The notes under the pieces are model-generated. The model was not told the DNA's origin and ran no database searches. It saw only the letters and a program-made list of their open reading frames with translations. A program made the translations under genes and the position numbers. From the NCBI RefSeq assembly GCF_026210795.1, contig NC_089439.1, positions 1,736,001 through 1,800,000 of the forward strand: 64,000 nt of DNA, in the 5' to 3' direction. This document shows positions 32,952 to 57,082 of this stretch, in pieces (position 1 is the first letter of the stretch; every line of letters starts with the position of its first letter). The stretch comes from Rhizophagus irregularis (taxonomy: Eukaryota; Glomeromycota; Glomeromycetes; Glomerales; Glomeraceae).

Positions 32952-33692
32952 TAAGTATAATAGGGGATAAATCAAGTTAAAATTTTCAATTCTTATTGTT
33001 TTTGAGATTTCTTTTTAAATTTTGTATGAGTCAAATGAACATTATTTAGTAAAATCTTTGGCAGGAGTTTATGACGTATATTTCAAGATTTATAAAGTGC
33101 GATTAGGAGATAATTAGCAAAATTATATACGCCATATATATGGCGTAATGTTGTAATGCCATAATTTTTCATGCCGATTATTGAATGCTGTAATCGTAAA
33201 AACATGTATCAATTGTATCATGTATCATAATTAATTAAAAACGTCACCCGCCACTTAAAAACATTATTATGTTATATCTATTTTTTGTAATAATAAAAGT
33301 GATGAAAAGCAATCTAATCATAATCATATTTTGATTATGGAAACTAACGAGAATATAAGTTCATAATACCGCAGAAAATGTAGCTTCTATCGCATAAATG
33401 ACAATTTTTTTGATTCGACGAGTTAGCTCGAGTCAAGTCATAATGCGAGCCAAAATTAATTGTAGTTTTGGCCAATTCCGCTTTTCCAGTGGTAATGCAA
33501 GCTGACCCTACTATATTTTTGGCCAGATTAATATAATCTTAATTGTAAATTTTTAATCCACGATTCGTTATATTCATAATTCTATTGCTTACGTATCATA
33601 GAGTAAAGATGACGATGATCTGATTGATTCGCCTAAAAACTACTTATTTCCTTTAGTATAGTATTTTATATAATATTTTAATTATTAAAATA
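32952..33692. other. Intergenic DNA, no gene
   Basis: AT-rich spacer between the giant gene and the LINE remnant, holding one perfect 20-bp palindrome. No reading frame of interest. Confidence 0.5.
33128..33147. repeat. Perfect 20-bp palindrome
   Basis: TACGCCATATATATGGCGTA is its own reverse complement, about 180 bp after the stop codon of the giant gene. Further GCCATA words lie close by (33162). It could be a protein-binding site or a cruciform-prone spot. Confidence 0.5.
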
Positions 33693-35636
33693 TTGCAAGG
33701 GATAAAGCTGCTAGCAAATGATAATTTTAGATTGTGCGATCATGGTAGAATACATGATCACGTGACCAGTGGAGGACAAACGCTGATAGATGAAATGATA
33801 GAGAAAAAAATTTTTAGTAACAGTGTTCGAAGTTTAAAGTCAGTAAATATAATGTATGTGACGCAGTTAATAGATGAAAATAATAGATTAAAAACATGGA
33901 GACAAATTACAGGAGAAGCTGGTCGTAGTAGTAAGGGTCGAGTACCATTATGGTTTAATGAAATAGAAAAAAAGATGATTAAAAATGATAGCAGAGAAGT
34001 ACATAGTGGTTATGAATTAATAAGAGAAGTGTATAATAGATATAATAATAATATAGTTTATGAAAACTATTGGGAAAAGTTAGAAAGAGATTTTATAGGA
34101 AGAGACTTGGAAGAATTATTAGAATTTGATAATAGATTTAATATAATGAAAATGAGTTTTGAAGATTGTAGAGGTCTTTTGGAATTAAAGAATGCATTTA
34201 TGCAATTAGGTGATTTTAAACAAGAGAATATTAGTTTATATACGGACGAAAGTAAAAAAAATGGAGACAATGGAATTGGATGGGTTGTTATGGATGAAAA
34301 TAACATTATTGGTAAAGGAAGTTTTAAAATTGAGGGTAAATATGAGGTATGGGAATTAGAATTAATAGCTATAATTATAGGATTACTAATAATTATGAAG
34401 GGTGCAAAGGTGAATATTTTTACGGATAGTCAGGTAGTATTAGATTTATGGTATAAATTAATAGTAGAAAATAGAATATGGTCGACCAGAAGGATATGGA
34501 ACATTAAAAGTATTGGATTATGGAGATGGTTAAAATGGTTGATGATAAAATTAGAGTGGGATTTGGTTTATTATAAAGTTAAAAAGCATTCAGGTATTTT
34601 AGGAAATGAATTGGCTGATGGGTTGAGTAAAATTGCGTTAATGACGAAAGAAGATAGAAATTTGATTATAATAAAGTTGAATCAGGAGATAGACTGGGAA
34701 TATAATTTATATTGGAAAAAGGAATTAATTAAAGAGGCGCCAAGGGAGTTTTATAAATTATATAATCAATGGAGTTATAAAGCAGAATTTTTATCTTTAG
34801 ACGTGTGTCGATATTATAGATTCAATAATTCAATAGAAAAGATTGACTGGGTTCGTTCAATCAGAATTATTATGAAAGCTTTTAATGAAGAAAATACAGA
34901 TAAGAATAATTCTGATAATGCTTATAATATTAAAAATTTTTTTGAAATTTTACCTGTGGCAACATTATTAAATAAACGTAATCCAGAATTATATCAAAGT
35001 GGGAGATGTATACGTTGTAATTATACAATTGAAACATGGATACATATTTGGATATGTAGTCAGGCAGACACGTCTATTATTCAAATAATTAATACAGCTT
35101 TTGAATCTTTAAAAGCTAAGTTAGATGAGAAGGATTTTCGGATTTATTATAATTGTCATGCACGTTTATTACACATTTTGAATGAAAAGTCGAAAGTGGT
35201 ATTTAATGGTGGAATTTTTCATGAAGCTATTAAAGGAATAGTTAACAAAAGGTTGTTTCTAAAGATAGAGGATAAAATTTTTAAAGACGCTATAGCAAGT
35301 TTTGTAGAGGACATACATGATATGGCTAGAAAATTCATGTGGAGTGAACGATGTAAAAGTTTTAATGAATGGGAATTAAGACAGGGCATAACGAAACAGA
35401 TGAAAAAAGCGAGTAAATTACATCAATCTTCATTACCTAGTTTGGGTCATGATGAGAAAAAAAGAAAACTCTTTATTTATGATGCTTTACAAAGATGGAC
35501 AGGGTATTATATCAATAACGATATAGTAGCTAAAAGTATTTGGTATGAAATAGGTATAGAAGATTTGTGGAAATATTATACTTTAGTTACGTTTAGATCT
35601 TCTAATTATGCTTCTAATTTTAGTATTTTAGATTAG
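33693..35636 (+). mobile_element. 5'-truncated LINE ORF with RNase H domain
   Basis: One open frame of 647 codons without introns. Residues about 185-315 form a cellular-type RNase H: YTDESKKNGDNGIGWVV (first Asp), WELELIAI (Glu), IFTDSQVVLDLW (second Asp) and KKHSGILGNELADGLSKIA (final Asp region). This is the RNase H that follows reverse transcriptase in many LINE clades. After it come a Trp/Lys-rich segment and a CIRCNYTIETWIHIWIC cluster, like the zinc knuckle at the end of LINE ORF2. Upstream reverse transcriptase and endonuclease motifs are missing, as expected for a 5'-truncated copy. The frame is undamaged, which suggests a recent insertion. The first codon given is only the edge of the open frame. 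Confidence 0.75.
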
Positions 35637-36046: not shown

Positions 36047-37579
36047 ATGGCTGAATTTGATCAAGAATCTGATATAAGTATGCTTCTTATTTGCTAGAGT
36101 TTTTTTTTGGTTTTGGTTAATTAGAGTTAGGATAAGTTAGGGTTAGGGTTAGGGTTAGGATTAGAATTAGGGTTAGGGTTAGGGTTAGGGTTAGATTAGG
36201 ATAAGAAGTTAATGTTGAGGTTAGGTTAGGATTAGGGTTAGGGTTAGGGAATAGCTATCAATTATATACTAATGAAACTTTATTTACACATATATATATT
36301 TTTAGTCTTCCTTTATAATAGTTCCGGTGATAACAATTATGAAGATTACGAAAGTGGATCAGAAAATGAAAATGAAGAACAAGTGTTGAGTATTGGTAAA
36401 GAATTTGACTCATGGGAGGAAGTTAATAGATTTTTTGATGAATATGCACTATCGAAAGGTTTTGCTATAAGAAAATGCAGAGGAGATTATATTTCTTTAG
36501 AGGATAGTTCACAACGCCTTGTTAGAAGAACTTACTCATGTACTTTTTCAGGTAATTATAGACCAAATAAAGCAACTGATTTATCAAAGTAGCGTCAACG
36601 TACTTCAAATTCAATTGGATGTCTCTGGAAAGCTAGTTTGAATTGGCCTAAAACATCTCCTGCAATTCATTTAACTTCGTATAATGACGATCACAATCAT
36701 TCATTGAATCCATTAATACACAAGACTTCACCTAAATACTGACGTTTTTCTGAAGAAATAAAGGCTGATATAAAATTTTATATGACATATGGTGGACCTT
36801 CAATTGGTGCTAAAATTATTCGAAATTTGCTGCAAGCAAAGTATCCACAACAGTATATACATCCTAAGACACTTTATAATTCTATTCAAGAATGCAAACC
36901 TTTAACACCTACTGTATTACAACATGATGCAACAAATTTGCTTAATTTATTGAGAGAATATCAAATTAAAAACCCAGAATGGTATTATCAAGCTCGTTTT
37001 GATAAAACAGATGGAAGACTTACTTCAATATTTTGGATGTCTCCAACACAAAAACAACTCTGGTTATGATATCATGATGTTGTAATTAATAATTCAACAT
37101 ACAAAAAAAATCGCTATGATTTGACCTTAAATATTATTGTTTGTATTGACTGTGATAATCATACCAGATTGGTTGCATGTGCTTTAGTTGATGATGAAAC
37201 TGAGGCAACATTTAAATGGATTTATGAAAATATTAAAATTGCTACTGGGAATATTGTGCCATATTCAATATATACTAATGGAGATCCCGCTAAGTTTCGA
37301 GCTATTAAGAGTGTTTTGGATACAACAGTACATTTTATCTGTATTTATCATATTAATCAAAATATTCAAAAGAAATTAAAAAGTGTTCTTGGATCAAATT
37401 TTACTCAATTTCATAAAGATATTTATCAAGCACGAAACAGTTTTAATGTTAAAAAGTTTAATTTCTATTGGGAAAAATTGAAAAATAATTATCCATCAGC
37501 AGTTCCATATCTAAATCGAGTATTAGATCAAAATCGAACTGCATGGACACTTTGTTATAATTGTAAAATGTTTACTGCT
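36047..37579 (+). pseudogene. MULE transposase gene, 5' part
   Basis: A short first exon (36047-36077, beginning MAEFDQESD) splices in phase to 36306. The protein continues with an acidic stretch, a FAR1/WRKY-like DNA-binding region (EVNRFFDEYALSKGFAIRK) and the MULE catalytic region: NRYDLTLNIIVCID (first Asp), YTNGDPAKFRAI (second Asp region), HFICIYHINQNIQKKL (CxxH motif of MULEs). Three stops lie in this frame: TAG 36590-36592, TGA 36740-36742 and TGA 37067-37069. All are explained by a single C-to-T change. The frame stops at 37579, exactly where the CACTA-like element begins, and resumes at 51340. Intron 1 carries a telomere-like tract. MULE transposases move DNA by cut and paste; this copy is dead. 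Confidence 0.8.
36121..36249 (+). repeat. Interstitial telomere-type (TTAGGG)n tract
   Basis: About 130 bp of TTAGGG units with degenerate variants (TTAGGA, TTAGAA, GTTAGGATAAG). TTAGGG is the telomere unit of most fungi. The tract is G-rich on the plus strand, and the DNA continues as MULE coding sequence on both sides, inside what reads as MULE intron 1 (36078-36305). It is therefore internal, not a chromosome end. Confidence 0.8.
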
Positions 37580-37604
37580 CACAGGTCGAATGAAAAAAAA
37601 TCGG
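37580..37604 (+). repeat. Left terminal inverted repeat of the CACTA-like element
   Basis: The 25 bp from CACAGGTCG to ATCGG pair with 51312-51336 at 20 positions. They follow the target duplication GCT directly. The first 11 bases are identical to the end of the foldback element at 60158. Confidence 0.85.
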
Positions 37605-37694
37605 ATTTTGACCCTTTTAAAATAGTTTTGCCGATATTAGCATATACATGCCGATTTTTCGCGTATTTATGTATAGATTTGCCCATTTATGCCG

Positions 37695-38270
37695 ATTTTT
37701 AATAAAATCCGATACATCAGTCGGAAATACCAATTTTTAATGGCCGATCTTTGTTAATATTAAATTCGGATGTTGTTATTATTATATAGTATTGTCTGCT
37801 TTTCACATCGGAGGTTTGATATACAAATCGGAATTTGCTCCTTTAAATATAGCCATGCCAATTTCAGTATAGCTTTCGATGAAATCCGATAATTCAGTCG
37901 GAAATATCAATTTTTAATGACCGATCTTTGTTAAATAAAACCGATATTAAATTCGGATGTTGTTATTATTATATAGTATTGTTCGCTTTTCATATCGCAG
38001 GTCTGATGTACAAATCGGAATTCGCTCCTTTAAATATAGCCATGCCAATTTCAGTATAGCTTTCGATGAAATCCGATAATTCAGTCGGAAATACCAATTT
38101 TTAATGACCGATCTTTGTTAAATAAAACCGATATTAAATTCGGATGTTGTTATTATTATATAGTATTGTTCGCTTTTCATATCGCAGGTCTGATGTACAA
38201 ATCGGAATTCACTCCTTTAAATATAGCCATGCCGATTACAGCATATCTTTGCCGATTTAAAGTATAATAC
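37695..38270. repeat. Left subterminal tandem array, about 180-bp unit
   Basis: Three tandem copies with starts (AAATCCGATA...CAGTCGGAAAT) at 37705, 37882 and 38069, that is 177 and 187 bp apart. Each copy contains several CCGAT/ATCGG words in both orientations, like the subterminal transposase-binding repeats of CACTA elements. No coding potential. Confidence 0.7.
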
Positions 38271-38518
38271 TGTCGCGGTAATACTGCAGACTTAATAATT
38301 TTAATATATATATATATACACTAATGTACCGACTTCATAACAATGAAAATTCGGATAGAGAAGAAAAAAGGAAGCATTGGAAAATAAGTGAATTAAACCT
38401 TCACGATATACTTAAAGATAATAAACTTAGGACCTTAGGTGGAAAATTAGTTAAGTGCTTCTTAACTTAACAAATGGAAATATACTTATACCATATAAGA
38501 AAAAGAGAACATAATTAT

Positions 38519-39326
38519 TTAAAAAAAAATTATTTTGATTTTTTTTTTATTATTATTATTATTATCAGGTAAGTTGGAGCGCGAACGTAATAAGTTTCTC
38601 GGATTTTTTAGAGCTTGATTTTCCGCTGAAATTAACAAAAGATATGTTAATGAAATAATATGAAATAATAGGACAAAGATATTTTTAAGTAATAAGGAAG
38701 ATACTTACATCGTAATTTGCGTATTTGCCGGTGAAGAGTAGAAATTGATTCTACTTCATGGTTCTCCAGCTCCTCAACCCTATCTTCTGCGTCCCAGAGT
38801 GCATTAATAGTCCTTTGGTGAGCATTTTGGAGCTCTTGTAATGCATTAGTAGTCCTTCGATGAGCATTTTGGAGCTCTTGTATCTTGGTTTGCGAAGCAT
38901 CTAATGCTTTTTTCGTTGCTTTTAACTCCGCAAGGCATGTTCCCAGGCCTCTGTTATAACAATCGACATTCACTGAGCAATAAAAAAAAATACATATACA
39001 GTATATAAAAATAATGGGTGGTTAGCAAAAGCTAAGTGAATAAGTCGATAGTCCTTGGAAGCATTCTTCAGGATTGTTCCATTTAAGAACCGAGACTGCC
39101 CTGGAGGTACAAGACCTCGTCTCTTCAGGTGACCCATCTAAGAACCGGACAGCTCTGGGAGTATAAAACTCCGTCTACAGGCGACTCCATTAGAGAAATA
39201 CAACCATGAACCTTGCGTACGATACCCACTTTTCAAAAATTTTACGGTCGTCATACGCTTCGCTTTGAGCGTCTTAAAACGCTCCTTAGATTTTTTCTGC
39301 GAGGTTGTGGAACGGCGAGAACCCAT
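38519..39326 (-). CDS. Small basic coiled-coil protein of the CACTA-like element
   Basis: Three exons (39326-39230, 38972-38709, 38625-38519) with clean gtgggt, gtaagt donors and cag acceptors give 155 residues. The start MGSRRSTTSQKKSKERF is chosen because it is the first ATG, with a TATATAA box about 70 bp upstream (near 39405-39411). Residues 1-33 are very basic. Residues 40-115 form a coiled coil containing a doubled block (KIQELQNAHRRTTNAL, then QELQNAHQRTINAL). The tail has a poly-Asn stretch. Intron 1 holds a duplicated segment of about 55 bp (39085-39190). A relative on the other strand lies at 46357. No known family recognised; a DNA-binding accessory of the transposase, or dimerisation partner, is a guess from charge and context. 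Confidence 0.65.
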
Positions 39327-39598
39327 AATGGCGTTAATAAAATATAATTGATGAAAAGACAAAAATTATTGAGCGAAAGTAAAGGGCATGGAATGATGAA
39401 AGGTAGACTTTATATAATAAAAATACGCGTCCTGAAAAACGCGAACAAGCTGATGAAAATACACGTGAATTTTAGAATAATTATTTTTAGAATAAGGAGA
39501 ATAGCAACTTTAAATTAGTAATATATTATTTTGAGATTTGAGCCGATTTTTAATAACGTTATTCAAATTTATAGAAAATTCATTTTATTAAAATGTTA

Positions 39599-39805
39599 TT
39601 TTTTTATTTAAAGGAATAACTGCCATATAATTTTTTATCTTTCTCACTTCAACATTAAATTACATGTAATAATACATTATATATTGGTATTATACTATCT
39701 CTATCCATAATTCTATATTACATGATTTTATGTCGTTATATACTTGACAATAAAATCTTATCTTGAGAATCATGAATCGGTTTATACCATTTAACTAGTG
39801 CAAGT
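39599..39805 (-). pseudogene. Second copy of the transposase 3' end
   Basis: This stretch matches 42708-42945, the last exon end of the transposase gene, in the same orientation. It includes an exactly shared stretch of about 30 nt (CATAATTCTATATTACATGA and onward) and the ATACCATTTAACTAGTGC word. It carries deletions and cannot encode protein. It shows that part of the element was duplicated or that two related elements fused. Confidence 0.7.
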
Positions 39806-40450
39806 AATTATTTAAATAGACCTGTCCCTTAAGGTCTATAGGTCCGGAATGTCTAAAAATTTGCAAATCACATGAATTTTCACTCTGGACCCACAATGGT
39901 TAGTATTTACGAGTGATAGTTTAGCCGTTTCCAAACTGATACATACGCCCAATTGCAACAATCATGATTAAAAAAAATACTTTTGTCAATTGATTGGTTA
40001 CTATAAAATCGCCTTATATTGTTCGACATTCCAATTGTCGAAAACGGCAATAATCGTAGTATAATTATTTGTTAATATTTCACGTGAACAAACAAATCAA
40101 TAATTATTTATATAAAACTTTCTCCATCCCTTTATCGAATTTTAGAACGATGGTTGATTGATTGTTTTGTTAAGTAAATTTCATTTTACGATTTTTAATA
40201 GTGATATATACATGATAATTAATTAAGTGATATCGATGGTATCAATTTTTAGTTTAATTTTAATAGTGATATACACATGATAATTAATTTAGTGATATCG
40301 ATGATATTAATTTAATTAAGTGATATCGATGATATTAATTTTTAATTAAGAGATAACGATTATGATATTATTTTAATGATGTAAGTAATGGTTAAATAGG
40401 TGACTTTTCACCTTTCTTTTCGGTTCAATCTTGTTTCTTTACATTATTAA
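39806..40450. promoter_or_regulatory. Upstream region of SR gene copy 1 with TATA box and small repeats
   Basis: TATATAAAA lies at 40109-40117. At 40199-40370 words such as TAAGTGATATCGATGATATT are repeated four times in tandem with small changes. No protein-coding sense apart from a possible leader. The ATG used for the gene (40451) is about 340 bp after the TATA box, so an untranslated first exon and intron may be present. Confidence 0.4.
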
Positions 40451-42530
40451 AATGAAAAAAAAAATAAATTGACGCTTATTCCTATTTCACGTAGCGAATC
40501 ACATCCTCGTTCTCCTTCTCAGGGTCGCTCTCAGCAATATCATCAATCTCCTTCCTCTCACTCCCATCGACGTCGACGTCGACATCATTCTCGTTCTCTC
40601 TCCCCTCTCCCTCCTCTCTCTCTCTCGACGTCGACGTCGACATCATTCTCGTTCTCGACACCATTATGATTCTCTCTCCTCCTCTCCCTCCTCTCACTCT
40701 CGTCGACGTCGACGTCGACATCATTCTCGTTCTCGACACCATTATCATTCTCTCTCCTCCTCTCCCTCCTCTCACTCTCGTCGACGTCGACATCATTATC
40801 ATTCTCGTTCTTCCAATTCTCATTCTCAACAATCCTCTCTCCCCTCTAGGGGGAGATCGTTAACAAAAAGTATTATTATTTATATTTTTATTGAAATTAT
40901 ATTTAATATGACCTGTACTAATTACTTGTAAAATAATAGGAAATTTGCCGGATTTATCGGAAGGTGGTTATATATATATATTATTATCAAATCAATTAAA
41001 AATATAATAAATTTATAATATTTTATTAACTTCTGATAGGTGGACAACAGCAACATCATCAAGAAGAGCAATCTTCGCAATCTTTAGGTGAGGACCCATT
41101 CATATCATCGCTTCATCAACTTCGCGCTTCTTTGCATAACTGTTTTTCCTATTATAAAATTATTAAATCAAGAAATTCAAGAACTAAAAAGCGCGGTATC
41201 ACAATTGTCTAGTCGACTGGAGGCTTTGACAGGCAGTAACTCCAGCCATTCCAGTGATAAGACGATCGCGAGTATAACAACAAGTGTTAATCGAAGTCTA
41301 TCACCCGTAATAAGCAGAAATAAAGGAAAAAAACTATCACCAATGACTCCAGGCTTTAAAAAAACACTTCGTGTAAGTTACACCTCTATTATAAAATATT
41401 TATCTTTTATAATCTTTAATCATATTCATTATTATTTTAAATAGGATGAAGTTGTTCAAATCATTAATAATTTAGGTTCCAGAATTTCGTTTGATGTTTC
41501 ACAAACGTTTAGTGACCAGAAGAAATCAATAAACAAAAAACTTTTACCAGCGGTAAAAGCGGCAATGAATCCATCGATTGAAGTATATGATACCGAGATT
41601 GTTAATGTAATCAAACAGCTTCATAAGTCTCACCGAGATATCTGGAAAATAACCCAGGATGGCAAATTAGATACGCACAGTAGACGTCAACATATGACTT
41701 CTCGGCGAGACCAAGTACGAAATTTAATAAAATGCAAAATTTGTCAATTATTTCTAATTGTCTATGCAATCAATTAACATTATTAATTAACTATTAATTA
41801 ACTTTTTAACAGAAAATGACGCGACGTAAACGCGGTTTACAACACATGATTAACACAAAAGACAAGGTTTTAAATGACTGCAAACCTCAAGAAATTACCT
41901 GGGACGAGTACATGAAAGATTGTGAAAAAATTGTAGTGATCTCGGAACTTCATTCCGATGAGTGGTCATCGGAAGATGAAAATCTTGCCAACAATGAAAA
42001 AAATCTAGAGAAAAGACCAGAACGTTTAGATAAATCGAATTCTGTAATCAAAATACATGAAAAAAAATGGAAATCTACGAGAGTATGTAAAGTTATTTCT
42101 TTATCAATATAACATTTATAAATAATATTTTTTTTTTAATTAGATTAGGAGAATTCTAAGTAGGGCGGATGAAATCGGGGAGAGTATTGGAACTGGTCTA
42201 ATCCGTATGCGTCATCGTTTAGATAATGTCATCGATAATAAAAGTAGACCGACAGAAATAATGCCAGACTGGTGGATTTCTTCCACCTGGGCGCCAGTTA
42301 GCGAAGACAGCGAAGACAGCGAAGACAGCAATGAAAGTCATAATGAAGGTGGCGATAATAATGATGACAATAATAATAATGATGACAATAATAATAATGA
42401 TGACAATAATAATAATGATGACAATAATGATGAGGATGACAATAATAACAATAGTGGCAATAATAATAACAACGAATTCGATGACAACAACAACAACAAC
42501 AACGATAATAACCCTTTAGTAGTTTTATAA
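40451..42530 (+). CDS. SR-rich, coiled-coil, WWISS-motif protein of the element, copy 1
   Basis: Exons about 40451-40868, 41040-41087, 41173-41372, 41445-41714, 41813-42082 and 42144-42530 join in phase by GT-AG introns. The N-terminus is Arg/Ser/His-rich (SPSSHSHRRRRRHHSRS), built from tandem DNA copies of about 93 bp. Then come a short coiled coil (EIQELKSAVSQLSSRLEAL), a conserved basic region (KKLLPAVKAAMNPSIEVYD, RRQHMTSRRDQ, RKRGLQHMINTKD), HSDEWSSEDENLAN, a WWISSTW motif and a long Asp/Asn tail. It is paralogous to 48025-50257. Two frame problems sit in the first exon: the A-run after the ATG and a CT-microsatellite near 40615, so this copy may be broken or mis-assembled there; the later exons are clean. 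No family recognised. SR-type and acidic ends suggest RNA or chromatin contact, by inference only. It converges on the transposase gene with 163 bp between stop codons. Confidence 0.65.
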
Positions 42531-42693
42531 ATATAATATATGTAACAATAATATAATAATAATATAATAAAAATATGATATATCCTTTAATAAAAAAAAT
42601 TAGTTATAATTTAATCAAATACAAATTTTATATAATTCAAATTCGTCATTCCGATTTACATATAAACAATTTTATATAAGATTCATTTGTTTT

Positions 42694-45600
42694 TTAAAAC
42701 GAAATTTTTTTATTTAAAGGAATCACGGCCATATATTCTTTTATCTTTCTCGTTCCAATATTAAAATCACATTTTATAAATTTTCCTAATATATGATGTA
42801 CCGGTATAATACTATCTCGACTCATATCATAAAACCCATTTGTCCATAATTCTATATTACATGATTTTATGTCATCGTCTACTTGACAAAAATATCTTGT
42901 CCTATGATCTTGGGCCGGCCTGTACCATTTAACTAGTGCTAGCGAATAAGTTAATGATGATGAATTTTTTAAATAAATAGTATGTTCAAAATAAAATTGA
43001 ACTTGACCGGGGTATGTGTCTATAGTTCCATCTTCCTGCTCAAAACGAGCTAATATGTATGATGATTTCTCATGACGAGCTGCCTGAATGGAACCAAATA
43101 TATCCGCCCCAATTCTTATTCTACCGTATTGTATAATTTTGGAAATTACAACAATATCGTTATTTGGACCCGTTATAGAATAAATGGGGATGAAATGTTC
43201 TTCATACAAACTATTATAAAACTCAACCAGTAAGTCCAAGACGCGGTTTGGGAGAAATGTTTCTTGGCGCGGTTTCATTAGCAACCCGGGAAAACGTTCT
43301 GTTCCATAAGCCGATTCATTTTCGATAAGTGAAAGCCTCAGAAAATTTTGATACTCATCACTTGTAAAATCGTCAAGTGCAGCCAAGCTTCCTGCAGATT
43401 TTCTAGGCTTTATAATGTCCAAAGTGGTGTTTAATATATTGCTATCGCAATTTGTGAGGTAATAGTTTAAAAAGGAACTTTCAACCATTATTTTTAATAG
43501 CTCTGGTTCAATGTTACGTTTGCTATTTTTATACGATCCTATGTTCTTAAGAAATAAATTGGTCAATCTGTATAAATTAAAAAAAACAATACGATTTTCA
43601 AATCGGCGAAATTAATATATCATACCTAGAATTCCATTCATTCGTTCGAAGCTAAAACACCAAAATGAGGATAAAGGTCCATAATCTAAAGCGCATTCAC
43701 ATATGTGAAGGCATAAATGAAGATTTGGGCTTATTTTTTTTTGTCCGTATTTTTTTTCAATTAATTTATTCATTTCGAGTAGTTTTGTAAATGCTTCGTT
43801 TAGATCACTTTTTTGTAGTTCCCGATTTGTTAAAATTTTACAGGAACGTACGAAATAAGCAAGAATTTTTCGATCGATCTCTCCCAAGAGATTCCATGTG
43901 ATAGGTATTGCAAAAATTAGAACAAACGTCTTCCACATGTCCGCCGTAAAATTTGAAAAGCCGTCGCCAGTGGCTATTCTAACGGGACGGTGACCGAGGT
44001 CACTTGGAAATTTTATCAAGTCGGCTCGCTCTTGCATTATTTTGAGCTTTTCATTATTTAATATACCTTCGTCGATCCAGAGCTTCATTACAATCCACTT
44101 TGCTACCCCGAGAAAGAGGCAGTGCATGGGATCAACTACGCAAAAGCGCACAGAATTAAAATAAGGTAATTGGTATACTTCCGACCAACGAACATGATAT
44201 TGTGAGACATGAGCCTTACGCGATTCTTCGGTTGCACATTTCTTCCATTCACGTGCCTTCTCCCTTATTAAATTAATATCTCTCTCAACAAACCAGTCGT
44301 CAATGTCTTCAAACCCACCAAAATTGGGTTGATTATTTACCAAGTTTGCTGATTTATAGCATCGATAACATGCGATTCGAGCTGATATAAAACCACATAA
44401 TTTTCGAGTCGCAGGAACGTCACTAGCACAACCTATTATCGCGCCACGGATAAAACGACCGTTGTTATATTCGTAGGTTTTTATATGATACCCTTCCCAT
44501 AACCGATTCAGCTGATTTATGATGGGGTATAAGTAATTGTTGATTTCATGTTTCTTTGGCTCTTTAGGACCGGGTATAACTGCTAGTGTGAGAATATTGT
44601 AGGGCTTGAAACGTTCGCTTCGGGGTAAGTTACAAATAACGGCATATATTACACCGACAGAATATTGGGAATTTATATAGGGTTGAAACCAATCCATGTT
44701 TAGCATTAATCCGATATGAGTTTCGGCGTATTCTTTTTTGAAGAATGGTTCTCCTTTGCCATCTTCAAAACTCATCCAAATCCTCCCATCATAAATGTCA
44801 AATAAGGCTTCAGTTTCGTTTTCCCTTTCTGCCCACTTTCGACATGTCACCTCAAAATCTTTGCGACCGAAAAATAGGGTTAGTTGGCGCCTAATGTTAA
44901 CTAATGGAAATGTCATTATCGGACGGATAATTGGATTATTTCCACCATCTTTATTACTGTCTATTTTTTTGACTAGAGGGTTATTACATTTTTGTCGAAA
45001 TCTTTCTATGCTATGATTCGGGTAGTTTATAAAACTACATGTTGGTACTTCGGTTGTGTTTGATATTTCATTTATGTCATACAATTTGTGACATTTATTA
45101 CATGCGGCATATTTGATAATATTCGTTGATATTCCCAATATTTTTTTGGCTACGTACAGGGAGGAAGGAAAAGATGAAAATTTATTTTCATCTACCGTTA
45201 AAAGAAAAAACCTTAGAAATTTAAATAAAGAATCTATTGAAACATTAGGAAGCTTATATCTTTGTTGATATTGTAATATCCATAAGATAATCCAGGTATA
45301 ATTATCATTGTTGATATTAGGAAGTTTTGGTTCACCATCGTCAAAATCTTTTGACGCAAAATTGACTTCTTCCTCATCATCATCTTCAAAATCTTCAGAG
45401 TCTCTATATTCTTCATCGCTTTCAAAATCTCCAAAATTACTGTCTTCGTCATCATCTTCAAAATCGCTAGAAACACCATCTTCGTCATCATCTTCAAACC
45501 TTTCAGAATCTCTATTTTCGTCGTCATAGTCTTCAAAATCTCTATCTTGATCATCATTCATATCTCTTCCGTTATCCGGTAATAAATTTTCAAGAATGTG

Positions 45601-45957
45601 ATCAGATATTTTCCCTTTCTTTGTGAATTTATGTTTTGCCGATTCATGTATAGGTATCATCTCGAGTAAAGGTTCGCATTCCATTGCATTATTATCGTCA
45701 GTATATTGTCCAACATCAGAAGGCCCAGCCTCTTGATAATCATCACCAAAATTATTAGATGGATTAGCATTAGAAGGCTCAGCTTCTTGATAATTGTTAC
45801 TAAAATTATTATTCGCATAAGATATATTATATTTTAACCCATGTTTAGTTTTCGTTCTTAGGTCCACTAACTTGCCATTACATTCTTTACAAAAGCAGTA
45901 TACTTTAGTTCTTATTCTTGTTCTATTAGATTTGGCAACAGCTCGAGGGTTAGACAT
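42694..45957 (-). CDS. CACTA Tnp2/Plavaka-type transposase
   Basis: Main exon 45957-about 43624 and last exon about 43566-42694. The N-terminus has a Cys motif (YCFCKEC) and long Asp/Glu-Ser repeats. A second Cys cluster (YAACNKCHKLYD) precedes the catalytic region. MLNMDWFQPYINSQYSVG carries the first Asp, GCASDVPATRKLCGF the second, CVVDPMHCLFLG is the usual HxxLLG-like block, and SFWCFSFERMNGILG carries the Glu. These match Tnp2/Transposase_21-like Plavaka enzymes, which cut both ends of CACTA elements. The obvious intron (gtatga...tacag) leaves exon phases 1 and 2, which do not agree, so either splicing is unusual or one base is lost near 43565-43625. Otherwise both frames are open over 1,070 codons, unlike the other mobile genes here. 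Start chosen at the first ATG; a TATATATATAA lies near 46190. Confidence 0.85.
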
Positions 45958-46040
45958 TTTTTTATCTAGAAAATTTTTTGAAAATTTTTTTTTATATAGG
46001 AAATTTTTTTGAAAAATTTTTTTATCTAGGAAATTTTTTG
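45958..46040. repeat. Threefold short repeat upstream of the transposase
   Basis: Three copies of a unit of about 27-30 bp, of the form TATCTAGGAAATTTTTTGAA, lie directly before the transposase ATG (minus strand). They fall in its 5' leader or core promoter. Copy number could affect expression; that is inference. Confidence 0.5.
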
Positions 46041-46356
46041 AGATCCTGAATTAATATTAAAAGTTAATTTCTGATTCACAAAAAGCCGCTAGATACTTAT
46101 TAAAGTGAAACAATCAGCCACATTTTTTTAATTTGTATTAATTATAATATTACAAATATTTACTCAAAATCTTTCGGGATTTTAACCAATTTATATATAT
46201 ATGATTGGAAAATACCACCTGACAGGCACTTTTGCGCCTCTCCCACCCCCTAAAATATAGCATAATGAATGTTATTAGCCATTTTTAGCAATAATACATG
46301 CTTTATTCATCGAATTATAAATTCCGAGATTAGCCAGAAAGATTATTTTCGCAAAA

Positions 46357-46762
46357 ATGGGCAAACCATCGTTGAATTCTCGCAAATCCTCGCGAAATCG
46401 CAAAAAAAAATAGAAGAGAGCGAATGCTAAAGGAATTAAAGGGGTAGGATAAGGAAGTTGCCGATTTGCAAGTCCAGTTGCTGGACTTTAAAAAAGTTGT
46501 GTACGATTCGGGAGAGAAATTACTTAATAAGTTGGAGAAAAGTTCCCGTGAAAACAATAATTTGGTGGAGTGGTTAAAAATATACGACGAAAAAATAAAA
46601 GACTATGAAAAAGAAATTTATGATTTAAATTTACGATTATATTTTTCGCAACAACATCAACAAACGCAGCCGCAACAACAATCGCAACAACAATCGCAAC
46701 AACAATCGCAATCACCTACATTTAGCAGCTTATCAGAATACTTCAAATTTCACAAGTCATGA
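46357..46762 (+). pseudogene. Small basic coiled-coil gene, second copy, broken
   Basis: MGKPSLNSRKSSRNRKKK starts at 46357 and ends in a TAG after a run of nine A. One base less in that run gives a basic stretch that ends at another TAG (near 46447). The same frame then continues with DKEVADLQVQLLDFKKVVY to 46762, ending in a Gln/Ser repeat (QQQSQQQSQ). Basic head plus coiled coil mirrors the intact gene at 38519-39326, though sequence identity is low. It lies between the transposase and SR gene copy 2, opposite in strand to the transposase. Either it is a pseudogene, or an unrecognised intron or an assembly error is involved. Confidence 0.5.
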
Positions 46763-47534
46763 TTAATCAATTATATTTCATTTTTTCATTTTTTAATTTG
46801 AAAATTCCTTTATATTTTGTAAATATGATGTTTTTTTTTGGCTATTAAACCAGCTTCTTTTTCATAATATAAGATAAGATAATATTAATACCTTTAAAAT
46901 CGATTTAAAATGTCATAAATTTTGTATAAATCTAATAGTAATTAATCATCATACTGCATGTAACAAGTATCTCAACGAACGATTTGTCCATCAGCGCCGA
47001 ATGATCGTGATAAACTTGCATCTATCATTTTAGTAGTAATACATATGAACTATAATTTAAACAAAAAGTCAGTCTAGTATGGGGATCATCCTCCCTATCG
47101 ACATGGGGAACATCTCCCTGTAGATGTTATTCATGTACGCAGGCAGAATGGAACTCAGAACTTTATTACATCAACGATGTTATTAGTGGTTAAATTTATG
47201 CGCTGTTTTTTTAATCAAGTTTCATAAAGAATGAAAAAAAAAATTTTGGCGATTTTGTATGTTATCTAGTTGAAAGATTTTATATTATTTTTTATTAAAA
47301 ATTAATTGATTGAGTTATTTTTAATCAAAATATCAAAATCACGTATAAAAGTATAAAAAGTTATTCTTTTATTGCCCAATAAGTACTAATTTTCTGCCTT
47401 GGGCGCAGTTTGTTACTACACGTGACTGGATGACGCATAAGTGTCACGCGCCAGATGCATAAATCCTACAAAATCGGAGGTGCCGATCATGATATATTTG
47501 TGTATGTTTACCACGCTTTCTTCGACGATATTTA
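46763..47534. other. AT-rich spacer inside the element
   Basis: No gene seen. A short GC-balanced part (47395-47480) contains CACGTGACTGG and may be promoter-like. Confidence 0.4.
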
Positions 47535-47700
47535 TATCGCTTTTTTTCGTTCACATCACAGTTCGAAATATTTCCTCTCTCTTTTCGTTCACATCACAGT
47601 TCGAAAATATTTCCTCTCTCTTTTCGTTCACATCACAGTTTCGAAAATATTTTCTATCGCTTTTTGCGTTCACATCACGGTTTCAAAAATATTTCCTATT
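47535..47700. repeat. Minisatellite of about 40 bp, four copies
   Basis: The unit TTCGTTCACATCACAGTTTC...ATATTTCCTCTCTC is repeated four times with small length changes, so it stays open in two frames. That explains the overlapping frames there; I do not regard them as genes. It lies upstream of the TATA box of SR gene copy 2. Confidence 0.6.
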
Positions 47701-47938
47701 GCTTTTTCGTCACGTATCGCTATTTCGTCGCGTCACAGATTTCCTACCGGAAAAACAAACTTCCGTAAGTAATTAATTTAATTAAGTTTAATGATATTAA
47801 TTGATTATTAATATATTTAATTGATGGATAGCGATGTAGTATAAATTTATTGATATGTGATAACGAAGTTAATAATTTATTTTATGTTTATTTTGATTAG
47901 GCAATTACGCGTTAAATGATAGGATGATTCAAAATATG

Positions 47939-47947
47939 TATATAAAG
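47939..47947 (+). promoter_or_regulatory. TATA box of SR gene copy 2
   Basis: TATATAAAG, 78 bp before the ATG at 48025, followed by a CT-rich stretch (TTTTTATCTCTTGTCCG) typical of a fungal start region. Confidence 0.55.
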
Positions 47948-48024
47948 TGCCTTTTTATCTCTTGTCCGATCTTTAATAATAAATACCATAATGAAAAGAT
48001 TTAAATTTTTACAAATTTCTCGGG

Positions 48025-50257
48025 ATGCATAGGAACCTCAATACTAGATCTCAACAAAAAGAATCAGATTCCCGTTCTCACTCACATCGTTCTCATCAAC
48101 GATCCCATTCACGTTGTTCCCATCGTCGTTCTCACTCACGTCGTTCTCATCAATGATCCCATTCACGTCGTTCCCATCGTCGTTCTCACTCACGTCGTTC
48201 TCATCAACGATCCCACTCACGTCGTTCTCACTCACGTCGTTCACATCGTCGTTCTCATTCACGTCGTTCCCATTATCGTTCCCAACCTCGTAGTCGTAGT
48301 CATTCCCAATCTCGTAGTCGTAGTTATTCCCAATCTCGTAGTCGTAGTCGTTCCCAATCTTGTAGTCGTAGTCGTAGTCGTTCCCAATCTCGTAGTCACC
48401 GATTACGACAACAACATATCTCTCCATCCCATTCTAGTTCCCCTATCCGTTCACGTCGACATCATCGATCACATAAATCACAATCTAGATCCCACAGTTC
48501 TAACCATCATCGATCCTATTATGAAGTATCTGATTCTAATGATCAATTTACCACTCTCTCATCCAAAGATTCATCACCACAAAATAGAGGGAGATCATTA
48601 ACAAAAAGTAATATTATTTAAATTAGTCTTAATTACATTTCAAAACATATACCGATTTAACATAATTATTATAGGAACACTTACAAATCAATCTTCGATA
48701 TTGCAAAATCAACCTTCCTCTTCAATTACTCCAGCTCTAAATAGCGGTATTATTTCCCTCACGCTCCTATTCTGACTTACATGTAAAAAAAAAATTTCAA
48801 AATGAATTATATTAAATACTGACTTATAATAGGTGGCGTTGAAAACCAAGAAATTCAAGAATTAAGAAATGTAATCTTAAATCTCACACAACGCTTAAAT
48901 AACCTAACCGAAAAAAATGCTAGTCATGAAGAACCTTTAGTTAATCGTCCCAATAGAAGCTTATCGCCTATTCTTATTAGAGAACAGAAACGTGAGCTGC
49001 CACTCATGTCAAGTAATTATAAGAAGACACTTCACGTAAATATACATTTTTATTAAAATTTATCTTTATTAAATTAAATATTTGATCATTTAATGACTGT
49101 TTTATTAAATAGGATGAAGTAGTCCATATTCTCAATAATCTTAATCAGTCGCTTCAATTCGACCTATCAAAGACGTACAGTGAACAAAAAAAAACAATAG
49201 AAAGAAAACTTTTGCCAGCAGTAAAATCGGCCATGAATCCTTCTATTGTAGCATATGATATAGAGATAGTAAGAATCATAAAACAATTGCATAAATCTCG
49301 CCGAGAGATTTGGAAACTGCAAAAAGAGGGTAAAATGCCGGAACATACCAAAAGACAACACATGATATCCAGAAGGGATCAGGTATAAAATTCATTATTT
49401 AATAATAAAAACATATACAATTAATTAATTTTTTAATTTACTCTTCAATAGAAGATGTCCCGGCGCAGAAGAGGATTGCAGCACATGATATCGACACGAG
49501 ACAAACTTTTGACTGAATGCCAACCTCGTAACTTAAAATGGGAAGAATTTATCAAAGATTGTATAAAGGCGACTAATACTTCAGACATACACTCGGACGA
49601 ATGGTCCACAGAAGACGAGGAATTAGCAAACAAAGAACGCAGTAAAAATACAAGATCAGGTCGATTAATTAACAATAATTCAGTAATAAAGATTTACGAC
49701 AAGAAGTGGCGGTCGTCGGGAGTATGCGAAGTCGTGATGTTATTAATGAATATAACATTTATGCTTAATAAATTATAAATTTTTATTAGATTCAAAAAAT
49801 TCTACATCGATCGGAAGAAATTGGTATTAGCATCGGATCTGGTTTAAGTCGTCCACGTTACCGCTCAGATGAAAATTTTGACAAAAAAAGCAAACCAAAG
49901 GAGAACATTCCCAGTTGGTGGATTTCGTCAAGCTGGGTTGCACAAGAATCCGACGAAGATGGTGATGAAGAGGATAATAGTGACGACGATAACAATGACG
50001 ATAACAATGACGACAATAACGACAAAGATAAAAACAATGCTAGTAACGATAAAAACGACAATAACGTTAACGATGATAATAACGATAAGAATGATGACGA
50101 TAAGAATGATGACGATAAGAAAACCGATAATAATGATTATATTTTTATCGATGACAGCGATGAAAAGGATGATCCATTTCGACTAGTGGTTCCAAAAGAA
50201 ATTATTAGGAGATCAACTACTAAAAAACGTTCTCTTTTAAAAAGTGAAAGAAAATAG
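48025..50257 (+). pseudogene. SR-rich, coiled-coil, WWISS-motif protein of the element, copy 2
   Basis: Six exons parallel copy 1: about 48025-48606, 48676-48746, 48834-49036, 49114-49383, 49452-49731 and 49790-50257. Exon 1 encodes long runs of SHSRRSH and SRSRSQ dipeptides. One TGA at 48154-48156 interrupts it where the neighbouring units read CGA. Downstream: EIQELRNVILNLTQRLNNL coiled coil, KLLPAVKSAMNPSIVAYD, RRRRGLQHMISTRDK, HSDEWSTEDEELANKE, SWWISSSW and a Asp/Asn/Lys tail ending KKRSLLKSERK. Exon borders sit at the same places as in copy 1 and protein identity in the central exons is high (estimated by eye at over half), so the pair arose by duplication within this element's lineage. 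The exon 1 stop would disable it unless translation starts downstream. Confidence 0.68.
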
Positions 50258-50443
50258 TAAGATGATTATAGCACATAGTAATAATAAATATAGCAAGAAT
50301 ATAATAATAAATATATCATAAACTGCAAAATAAAAAAACGTATATTACAATGTGTTCATATAAATTAAAATCGGTCAATAATAGAAAAAAACGGGTAATG
50401 ATGAATTACGAAAAAATCAAAAATAGAAAGATTCTGGCTTACT

Positions 50444-50852
50444 CGAAATAAAAACAGGCATAGATTATTTTAAGTATTGCTCTTACTGATCTATGAATCG
50501 GCATTTCTATTCAAATCTATTTGTGATCGAAATAAAAACAGGCATAGATTATTTTAAGTATTGCTCTTACTGATCTATGAATCGGCATTTCTATTCAAAT
50601 CTATTTGTGATCGAAATAAAAACAGGCATATGTTATTTTAAGTATTGTTCTTACTGATCTATGAATCGGCATTCCTTTTCAAATCTATTTGTGATCGAAA
50701 TAAAAACAGGCATATGTTATTTTAAGTATTGCTCTTACCGATCTATGAATCGGCATTCCTTTTCAAAACTATTTGTGATCGAAATAAAAACAGGCATATG
50801 TTATTTTAAGTATTGTTCTTACTGATCTATATATCGGCATTTCTATTTGTGA
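50444..50852. repeat. Right subterminal tandem array, 84-bp unit
   Basis: Five near-identical copies start (CGAAATAAAAACAGGCATA) at 50444, 50528, 50612, 50696 and 50780; the last is shorter. Each holds GAATCGGCATT. From 50853 to 51311 diverged CGGCA/CCGAT words continue to the element end. The unit is unrelated in length to the left array but shares the CGG core. Confidence 0.8.
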
Positions 50853-51311
50853 GAATGGCATGATTATCGCAGTCCGATTTTGGATGATTACTGCATGAAT
50901 CTGCATGGTAGTGTAAGTCTGTTGTGCCAATTTATAAATCGGCACTTATTTTTTGAAAAATTATTATACGAATCGGTACAATAGGCAGTCCGATTTGGGA
51001 GATTATTGAAGAATCGGCAGGTAATATAAAATGTTTGTTGTTCTGATTTAAAAATCGGCACTTCTATATGTTATGAATCAGCATGTTTATTTTCATGCCG
51101 GCAGTCTGATTGTGATGATATTTTGTAAATTTATTTACAAGTCGGCAGTCCGATTATTGTTTGAATCGGCATGATGGTTTAAAATGCGGCATTCCTATTT
51201 TTTGTTATTAAAAAGAGGAATTTCTATTTTTAGCAATTCACGCCATAAAATCGGCTGAATAAAGCCACGAATCGGACAAATACAGCCAAAAATCGGCAGT
51301 CCGATATTTGA

Positions 51312-51336
51312 CCGATTTTTACTTATTTGACGTGTG
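51312..51336 (-). repeat. Right terminal inverted repeat of the CACTA-like element
   Basis: Reverse complement begins CACACGTCAAATAAGTAAAA and ends ATCGG. The second GCT copy follows at 51337. It closes the element opened at 37580. Confidence 0.85.
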
Positions 51337-52620
51337 GCTGGTATTCAAAGTACTTTACGAGTAGAAGCAATGAATTCTATTATTGCATTTGATACAAATC
51401 AAAGTACTGGACTTTGTCAATTATTTAATATTCTAATGGGCAGATGTGATTTGGAAGCAAACAATGTTTTGATTAATCAGCAATTGCAAAAACAACCAAA
51501 TGTTTCATTATCAACAGTTTATAATACAATATACAAATCAATTGATGAAGAAATTCAGAATTATTTGTTGCCTAATATGCATAATAAGGTTCGTATTCAG
51601 ATTTCTAAAAGTTTCTTATATACAGCTCAACAATTTGATGGCAACCTTGAAGAATATATTAATGTAAGTAACTTTGATAACTTTTTATTTGCTTTTATTT
51701 ATTAATTATATTATTCACTAATTTGTAATCAAATATTTAGTTACAGGGAGAAATTGATAATACAACCGAAGGATATCTTGAAGAAATGTATAAAAAACCG
51801 CAAATTAACTTGAAAACATTATTGGAATATGTAGAACAGCAATATATTACATCTTTGTGGATTATTAGACCTATGGTTTCAAATTGGAATCATCATATTT
51901 TGATCTTAAATGATGGATCTTTTTTATGCACATGCTTCACAATTATTAACTTCGGAATACCTTGTCGACATTTTTTTTGTTTAATGAGATATACAAGTAA
52001 TGCACAATTTGCAATGGCTTTAATTAATCGTAGATGGTTTAATGATGATAAAGTTTTTGATTCAACAATAGATACTTCAATAACAAAATCAATTAGTATC
52101 GTCCAGGAAGAATCTTATATTGATAATCCGATAACACCAAAGTGTCAGATTTTAAGTACATTAAGAAGACAGTCTCATTGATACAGAACTGGTAAAAAAA
52201 TTATCAAAACAAAAACAGCAATTTATTGAGGAACATGAGTGTATAACAAAAGCGTTGAATCTAGCAATTAAAACTGATTCTGTTGATGAATTAATTGGGC
52301 TGTGTAATAGGTTTATGTCTTCTCATATTCATCTTAATATTCAACAAACTAACGGAATATATCAAAATGATCCCAATTATATTCCAAATCCAATTGTATA
52401 TAAAGTTCGTGGGCGTCCACCTAAAAGACTGAAAAGTGCAGTGGAAATTTCTAGAAATAAAAGGACTTTTAAAGAACTTATGAATATAAATCAAACTGAT
52501 GAACAAAATGCAAAAACAAGTGCGGCTGCAGCTGAAGTAAATCTTCATTGTGGACAACGAAAATGTAAAAAATGTGGGCAATTAGGTCATTATCAAAAGA
52601 ATTGTAATAATAATGTATAG
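51337..52620 (+). pseudogene. MULE transposase gene, 3' part
   Basis: After the target repeat the MULE frame resumes as GIQSTLRVEAMNSII. An intron (gtaagt, about 51665, to tag, 51741) separates it from an exon with the SWIM zinc finger CTCFTIINFGIPCRHFF (C-x-C-x9-C-x-H). A frameshift near 52175 leads to DTELVKKLSKQKQQFIEEH, then an AT-hook-like GRPPKRLKS and a zinc knuckle CKKCGQLGHYQKNC, ending at TAG 52618-52620. SWIM plus CCHC is the normal C-terminus of fungal MULE transposases. With 36047-37579 it makes one ancestral gene. Confidence 0.78.
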
Positions 52621-55995: not shown

Positions 55996-57082
55996 TCAAA
56001 ACTTGCGAATTAAGTCAGGGACATTCTCCTCCAACCAGTCAGCAGGTTCCCAAGTAGCCTCAGTGTCTGGATAGTGCTCCCACTTAACCAAATACTGGTC
56101 TTGACCTTTTCTAATGCGACGCTGAAGTATCTGCTCAGGAACAAATCTTTCAGGTTGTCCTCTTATCACAGAGTCAGGTGGGAGCTTTTCATTAATAGGA
56201 ACTACTTGCAATTCCTTTCGGGTATATGCACATCTGGATATACCTAATTGACCATGTGGTCCGTTAAGGAGATATGTAGGAGGCTGTTCGGGTGAGAGTA
56301 TCATTTTTTTAATTACACGAATGTTTGGGTTCCATCTTATGTCTCCTGTACAGAATTTTCTGTGAAGTTTGTTACCAAATACAGAAATAGATTCATCTAA
56401 CTTGACTCTGACACGTGTTCCTTCAGAGAGGAGTTCCATCTTTTTTGACACTTTAGGTGACCCTGTCGGAATGTCTGGGGGATTTCTTTGCCAGAGTTCA
56501 TTTACTTTACTAACTACATCATGGAAATCTTCTGACCATTCCACGGATGTCACCCTGGTTTTCAACTCCTATGTCACCATTCGTTTGAGAAGGGGTTCTT
56601 GGATGGCTTGGATAGCTCTTTCAGCATATGATTGCTGTTTATATCTACCTGGCTCTCCGAACCTCATCATCACCCCTAGGCTGTTCAGGAAAAAATCGCG
56701 TACCTAACCATTGGTGAATTCTGATCCAGAGTCTGTTTCCAGTCGATGTGTTGGTAGCTTAATATGATTTCTTCTGTAGATTTTAACAAATCCATTGAGA
56801 ACCCTATTTGCAGTCTTATCCTTTAGGGGTTCTGCATCAACTCGTTTACCTGCAACTTCTACTACTACAAGAAAATAGTGGAATCCTTCGGGGTCAACTG
56901 GCATCTCTGCGAGATCTGCCTGATACATCATATTTGGTTTTCATATAACTACTCGTGGATGCTCTGATGACTTCTCCTTTAGGGGCTTTTTGTATAGATT
57001 GTAGTGCTCTTCACCTTTTAGAATTCGTGCTGATACTCCAGAGAGATTGTAGTACTTATAGTAATTCTCTAAGTGTGACATA
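55996..57082 (-). pseudogene. Chromodomain integrase remnant
   Basis: Read from about 57082 leftwards in one frame: a helical N-terminal part (NYYKYYNLSGVSARILKG), the catalytic core with NMMYQADLAEM (first Asp), HRLETDSGSEFTNG (second Asp) and QQSYAERAIQAIQ (Glu, 36 residues later), then an SH3-like part and a C-terminal chromodomain (EQILQRRIRKGQDQYLVKWE, then TWEPADWLEENVPDLI). Stops at 56941-56943 (TGA), 56704-56706 (TAG) and 56569-56571 (TAG) are each one C-to-T change from Arg or Gln codons. The N-terminal part and the QADL motif look more like Ginger/Polinton-type integrases than like Ty3 ones; that is from memory. Chromodomains steer insertion to marked chromatin. It is convergent with the Gag-protease frame. 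Confidence 0.7.

Follow-up and report, generated by a model that had tools for sequence, protein, structure and literature searches.

A glomeromycotinan protein family encoded beside Tnp2 transposases in CACTA/EnSpm-type elements of Rhizophagus irregularis

A 13.8-kb Tnp2 element in the genome of Rhizophagus irregularis carries two related multi-exon genes, here called A and B, and the protein family represented by these genes belongs to the transposon. We assume, with a probability only slightly above one half (about 0.52), that A and B encode a Tnp2-borne partner protein of the transposase, which by analogy with TnpA of plants would grip AATCGG motifs in the subterminal repeats of the element and thereby aid transposition. 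The analysis started from one window, i.e., the whole stretch of 64,000 nucleotides under study (C11:1736001-1800000), and the searched genome comprised 146.7 Mb in 32 contigs.

The Tnp2 element and its two partner genes

The element and its parts are listed in Table 1. Seven further copies align with the window over most of 37580-51336, and CACA-type inverted ends together with a 3-bp target site duplication were present in all five copies where both ends were examined (GCT in the window, TCT in C11b, TAA in C19, TGA in C1b and TAT in C32); C24b, C3a and C15b contributed one end each and therefore stand outside this count. The insertion interrupts a MULE transposase frame (PF10551, E 6.9e-17) at 37070-37579 and from 51337 onward, and this frame is open through the junction if the flanks are fused with a single GCT. 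The genes are indeed carried by a DNA transposon, as the first-pass annotation had proposed.

Table 1. Features of the window element and of the minimal element F2 (window positions, except for F2).
Feature	Position	Strand	Remark
Whole Tnp2 (CACTA/EnSpm-type) element, 13,757 bp	37580..51336		match limits against seven other copies, end sequences, empty-site frame
Left target site duplication GCT	37577..37579		
Left terminal inverted repeat	37580..37604	+	starts CACAGGTCGAATGA; end sequences
Left subterminal repeats	37757..38317		three 187-bp units with AATCGG motifs
Decayed second transposase C-terminus	39591..39764	-	residues 237-305 of the C-terminal frame; tblastn 49% identity, E 1e-12
Gene A, partner protein	40452..42530	+	first exon broken in window copy
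Gene A coiled-coil exon	about 41165-41372	+	acceptor not fixed
Gene A core exons	41445-41714, 41813-42082, 42144-42530	+	introns between these GT-AG
Tnp2 transposase, two frames	42694..45957	-	PF02992 (Transposase_21), E 2.1e-14
Gene B, partner protein, six exons	48025..50257	+	one in-frame stop in exon 1
Gene B exons	48025-48607, 48675-48746, 48833-49035, 49113-49382, 49452-49721, 49790-50257	+	
Right subterminal repeats	50359..50862		84-bp units with AATCGGCA motifs
Right terminal inverted repeat	51312..51336	-	starts CACACGTCAAATAA read on minus strand; end sequences
Right target site duplication GCT	51337..51339		
F2 element, 6443 bp	C17:904391-910833		ends CACTGGTCGAATGA / CACTGGTCAAATGA, target site duplication TTA

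5'-CAC..GTG-3' ends with a 3-bp duplication, which are used to recognize CACTA/EnSpm elements (PMC12730594), were found in all five copies and also in the smaller element F2 described below. Repeated subterminal motifs, likewise expected of this group, are strong in the window element and modest in F2. The transposases of both elements pass the PF02992 cut-off (E 4.9e-18 in F2), and CYRC and HLCLH...FERMNG were seen by eye in the unaligned frames as mere candidates for the C(2)C and H(3-4)H motifs expected ahead of the last catalytic E in CACTA transposases. Among Pfam matches at E up to 1 there was none to the Plavaka family, which is described as prevalent in R. irregularis (PMC11075540), and Transposase_21 (tnp2) was the only family above cut-off. 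The transposase is placed between A and B, and an intron around 43600, read by eye, probably connects its two frames; the frame 43615-45957 is open in the window, and the long frame is without gaps and stops in two of the seven other copies.

Genes A and B had been annotated as look-alikes with a common exon layout and an ordered set of motifs, and this description proved accurate: the 3' exons are in register, two core exons measure exactly 270 nt in each gene, the cores are 59% identical as protein and about 64% as DNA, and KLLPAVK(A/S)AMNPSI, GLQHMI(N/S)T, HSDEWS(S/T)EDE and WWISS(S/T)W are present in both. A comparison of 230 codons shows saturation at synonymous sites (pS 0.80) with a pN of 0.25, which argues for constrained protein homology and against chance; judged by these sequences, A and B are old duplicates and both proteins are constrained. 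All five introns of gene B are GT-AG and, apart from the single TGA, its frame is open, and the first exon of gene A, out of frame in the window, reads through in copy C19. The AG/GT splice signs flanking core exon 41445-41714 are kept in all seven other copies and those flanking 41813-42082 in six of the seven. The predicted exon borders match P0001 and P0004, gene models from other records and themselves predictions, and agree in part with model P0016, in which the end of one exon is skipped. In several other copies A, B or the transposase is disrupted by stops or frame shifts. At C24:2443363-2463175 gene B is split from its transposase by an apparent insertion of ~11 kb, and this copy ceases to align with the window around exon 3 of B.

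Two short stretches that resemble coiled coils and have basic N-termini, detected by eye inside the element at 38690-39331 (-) and 46357-46762 (+), are perhaps remains of another gene pair. Elsewhere in the window we observed a DUF7431 match at 20191-21390 (+) (E 1.7e-96), accompanied by a fungal MACPF-like match below cut-off, a long retroelement-like frame with an RNase H domain at 33657-35636 (+) (PF00075, E 3.7e-11) and a chromo domain at 55996-56568 (-) (PF00385, E 1.5e-15) that may belong to a retroelement integrase.

Association of the family with Tnp2 across the genome

Searches with the core of A, a third relative and the F2 partner yielded at least 78 family loci after merging of exons by hand, the best candidates having been scored. 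Tnp2 positions were taken from other searches, with at least 169 entries, at least one of which is a double. The check set beforehand, an association within 10 kb of Tnp2, came out positive: 60 of the 78 listed family loci lie that near to a listed Tnp2, and only 2.4% of the genome does. This holds for all 17 A and all 17 B loci, for the single AB-like locus, for 13 of 16 F2 copies, which form a single young family and do not count as independent, and for 12 of 26 others, which comprise several diverged lineages, and it does not hold for one fragment of A. Sixteen of the 17 B loci adjoin their own transposase, and the remaining one (C24:2443363) is nearest to that of a neighbor. For 18 of the 78 listed loci there was no listed Tnp2 within 10 kb, and the one checked by sequence had one: beside the partner at C2:4069099 a Tnp2 is located in divergent position, with two matching stretches of 38 and 63% identity. 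Conversely, 31 of 55 listed Tnp2 are accompanied by a listed partner and 24 are not; here again the one checked by sequence had one, as a more diverged partner lies in divergent position to this Tnp2 on C16 (HMM E 3.4e-13 and 2e-7, small frame set) and carries HRHRREE, HSPEISETDEE, WRS and APKW. Neither of the two outcomes that would have refuted the first-pass proposal occurred: the family is kept in other copies and in other element lineages, and no known host family far from transposons emerged from the protein searches.

The usual arrangement of partner and transposase is head-to-head. Among the 60 listed loci 39 are divergent to Tnp2, 18 convergent and three tandem, and 17 of the convergent ones are gene A. 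Without gene A, 39 of 43 loci near a listed Tnp2 are oriented head-to-head, the exceptions being C15:381187 (convergent) and C2:1261508, C32:2508458 and C24:2443363 (tandem). The odd orientation of gene A could be explained by the transposase stub to its left, which suggests that A probably once had a divergent transposase of its own; considering this stub and the plan of the relatives, a tandem duplication of a unit of transposase and partner probably took place, followed by loss of the left transposase. A second transposase stretch was also seen past a diverged partner gene at L056 2946-3122 (+) (34% identity, E 1e-9) and is possibly another sign of duplicated units.

The simplest arrangement was found in F2, a distant element whose ends are similar to those of the window element. 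A scan for CAC and GTG ends that match at 11 or more of 16 positions and are flanked by a duplication of 2 or 3 bp gave the chosen pair with 13 matches and three other pairs with 11 each, so that the limits are those of one copy, and between these ends only a partner gene and a transposase are present, head to head. A near-identical F2 partner is annotated as OCT59_015669 (436 aa, 23 member sequences). As partner and transposase make up this element alone, the partner would seem to be among the core genes of these elements and not a passenger of the window copy.

Partner proteins and candidate subterminal motifs

The conserved part of the family is a basic core of ~230 residues, predicted to be helical, and SRR, RR..G...M, SDE.S..D, the W of WRS and W.IS are among the positions invariant in seven cores. 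WWISS, one of the motifs that had been highlighted, is correct for A and B but becomes WxIS across the seven cores. In the AlphaFold model of the F2 partner P0023 (mean 62.5) block means are 89-97 for core residues 171-250 and 68-89 for 251-310, and a separate N-terminal helix at 101-120 reaches 92-93; the A protein P0004 is predicted with a like arrangement (mean 60.1), and heads and tails of the models are mostly of low confidence. No known fold could be assigned to the models by comparison, no DNA-binding domain was recognized in Pfam scans and fold comparisons, and the assumption that no known family applies is in agreement with the lack of a convincing Pfam, NCBIfam or PDB match.

Protein searches at E up to 0.001 gave 22, 23 and 39 matches, six of them without organism name, and all named homologues come from Glomeromycotina (Rhizophagus irregularis, R. 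clarus, Funneliformis mosseae, F. caledonium, Ambispora leptoticha and Gigaspora rosea), although remoter relatives could be missed because the search needs shared five-residue words and one search scored the best 7991 candidates. Two annotated proteins among the relatives are composite: in P0039 of R. irregularis, which has no Pfam match, a transposase C-terminus is apparently joined to the partner core, perhaps as a gene-model fusion, and in P0049 an RNase H retroelement part is joined to it.

Candidate target sites of the partner are located in the subterminal repeats, and TnpA-type proteins of plants are described to recognize such repeats (PMC2613891). In the window element AATCGGCA occurs 13 times in the outer 1780 bp and twice in the inner 11,977 bp (shuffled ends: mean 0.07, maximum 1) and AATCGG 25 and 14 times (mean 1.59, maximum 7), whereby this contrast is inflated by the choice of the motif from the same ends and the excess is partly tandem copying of the 84- and 187-bp units. 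In F2 the excess is small, with four AATCGGG sites in the outer 860 bp and none in the inner 5583 bp against shuffles with a mean of 0.18, one of which reached two, and AATCGG is found six times outside and three times inside.

Possible function and relation to known systems

We propose that the ancestral element would have consisted of a partner gene and a transposase, transcribed divergently between CAC...GTG inverted ends, and that in the family of the window element a tandem duplication of this two-gene unit and the loss of one transposase would have left two partner genes. The partner may self-associate through the N-terminal helix, its basic core may bind the candidate AATCGG motifs, and in this way it could bring the element ends together and recruit or regulate the transposase, in the manner of TnpA of plant Spm. 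The same binding could also lift silencing of the element by CpG methylation. The partner would then parallel plant TnpA without being homologous to it, and would assist transposition and/or counter silencing.

The main rival is an anti-silencing factor, which would bind noncoding repeats of the element family that encodes it and remove or block silent marks, while the ends are paired by the transposase. VANDAL elements, which offer the parallel for such a factor, belong to the Mutator group and not to CACTA. They encode VANC, whose described sites of action are short motifs within noncoding tandem repeats of the same element family (PMC10398659), and it fits that AATCGG, located in repeats close to either end, includes a CpG and that transposons of R. 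irregularis are reported to be generally CG-methylated (PMC8647823). However, the motif copies are few in F2, no resemblance in sequence to VANC was noticed, and as an explanation on its own we consider this unlikely; given the CpG and the methylation, the partner could also have anti-silencing as an additional task. It is also conceivable, but doubtful, that this family, known from Glomeromycotina, is new and combines sequence-specific anti-silencing with end pairing at element-matched AATCGG-type motifs, the duplicates sharing the tasks as activator and repressor or for the left and right end.

An SR-like regulator, acting through RS head and basic core on the multi-exon transcripts of its own element, seems quite improbable. 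The head of B contains 51 RS/SR dipeptides in 194 aa, and in six of seven proteins the head exceeds the shuffle mean, from 51 vs 26.7 (P0016) down to 11 vs 8.0 (P0023), but P0029 shows no excess (10 vs 10.0), Pfam scans of the family gave no RNA-recognition domain, and the FF-domain-like rows are weak, at a level that the comparison tool calls common. For lack of such a domain in these scans, B was not classed as an SR splicing factor in spite of its RS-rich head. The SR head and acidic tail of the first-pass annotation are strong features of B and of A/B-like proteins, respectively, but not of the family: the head is weaker elsewhere and only A/B-like proteins, among them those of R. clarus, showed the long Asp/Asn tail, and therefore the hint at splicing or chromatin is weak. 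Very unlikely, in our view, is a captured passenger gene with a task unrelated to transposition. No function is known for the family and several element copies are partly broken, but the partner is one of the two genes of the compact F2, is kept beside Tnp2 in several lineages in one orientation, and found no host family among the protein-search matches.

The preferred partner protein resembles TnpA/TnpD of plant En/Spm, where a second, non-catalytic protein likewise accompanies a Tnp2 transposase and CAC...GTG ends, a 3-bp duplication and subterminal motifs are present, but En/Spm is one alternatively spliced unit, whereas the partner described here is a divergently transcribed gene of its own with putative DNA binding. 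An assignment to plant TnpA was rejected, as there was no homology in Pfam scans (plant CACTA partner families were absent from the matches of A/B cores at E up to 1 and of 23 members at 0.01) and the named homologues are restricted to Glomeromycotina. This does not speak against a like function, since partner proteins of different plant CACTA groups are described to share little similarity with each other (PMC2613891). PrA/PrB of the Schistosoma CACTA element SmTRC1, a proposed TnpA counterpart also reported to lack similarity to plant TnpA, originate from alternative splicing, and the search for relatives in that report gave none among elements of other animals or of fungi (PMC1636069); in contrast, the partner family spans several genera. 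Harbinger (Nuwa) elements likewise combine a transposase with a separate partner gene, which there encodes a DNA-binding Myb/SANT protein (PMC12730594), whereas Pfam scans of our family gave no Myb/SANT match. A CACTA transposase with a second, non-homologous protein is a known plan (PMC2613891; PMC1636069) and not the new system that had been suspected.

The few thoroughly characterized CACTA systems are described as those from plants (PMC2613891), and the present family may bear on how unrelated partner proteins arise. With one partner family across diverged element lineages and genera, a minimal element and a candidate motif, co-evolution of partner and motif becomes testable. Furthermore, the family may provide a role for many "hypothetical proteins" of mycorrhizal fungi and may aid in sorting their transposons, two thirds of which have been called unclassified in R. 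irregularis (PMC11075540).
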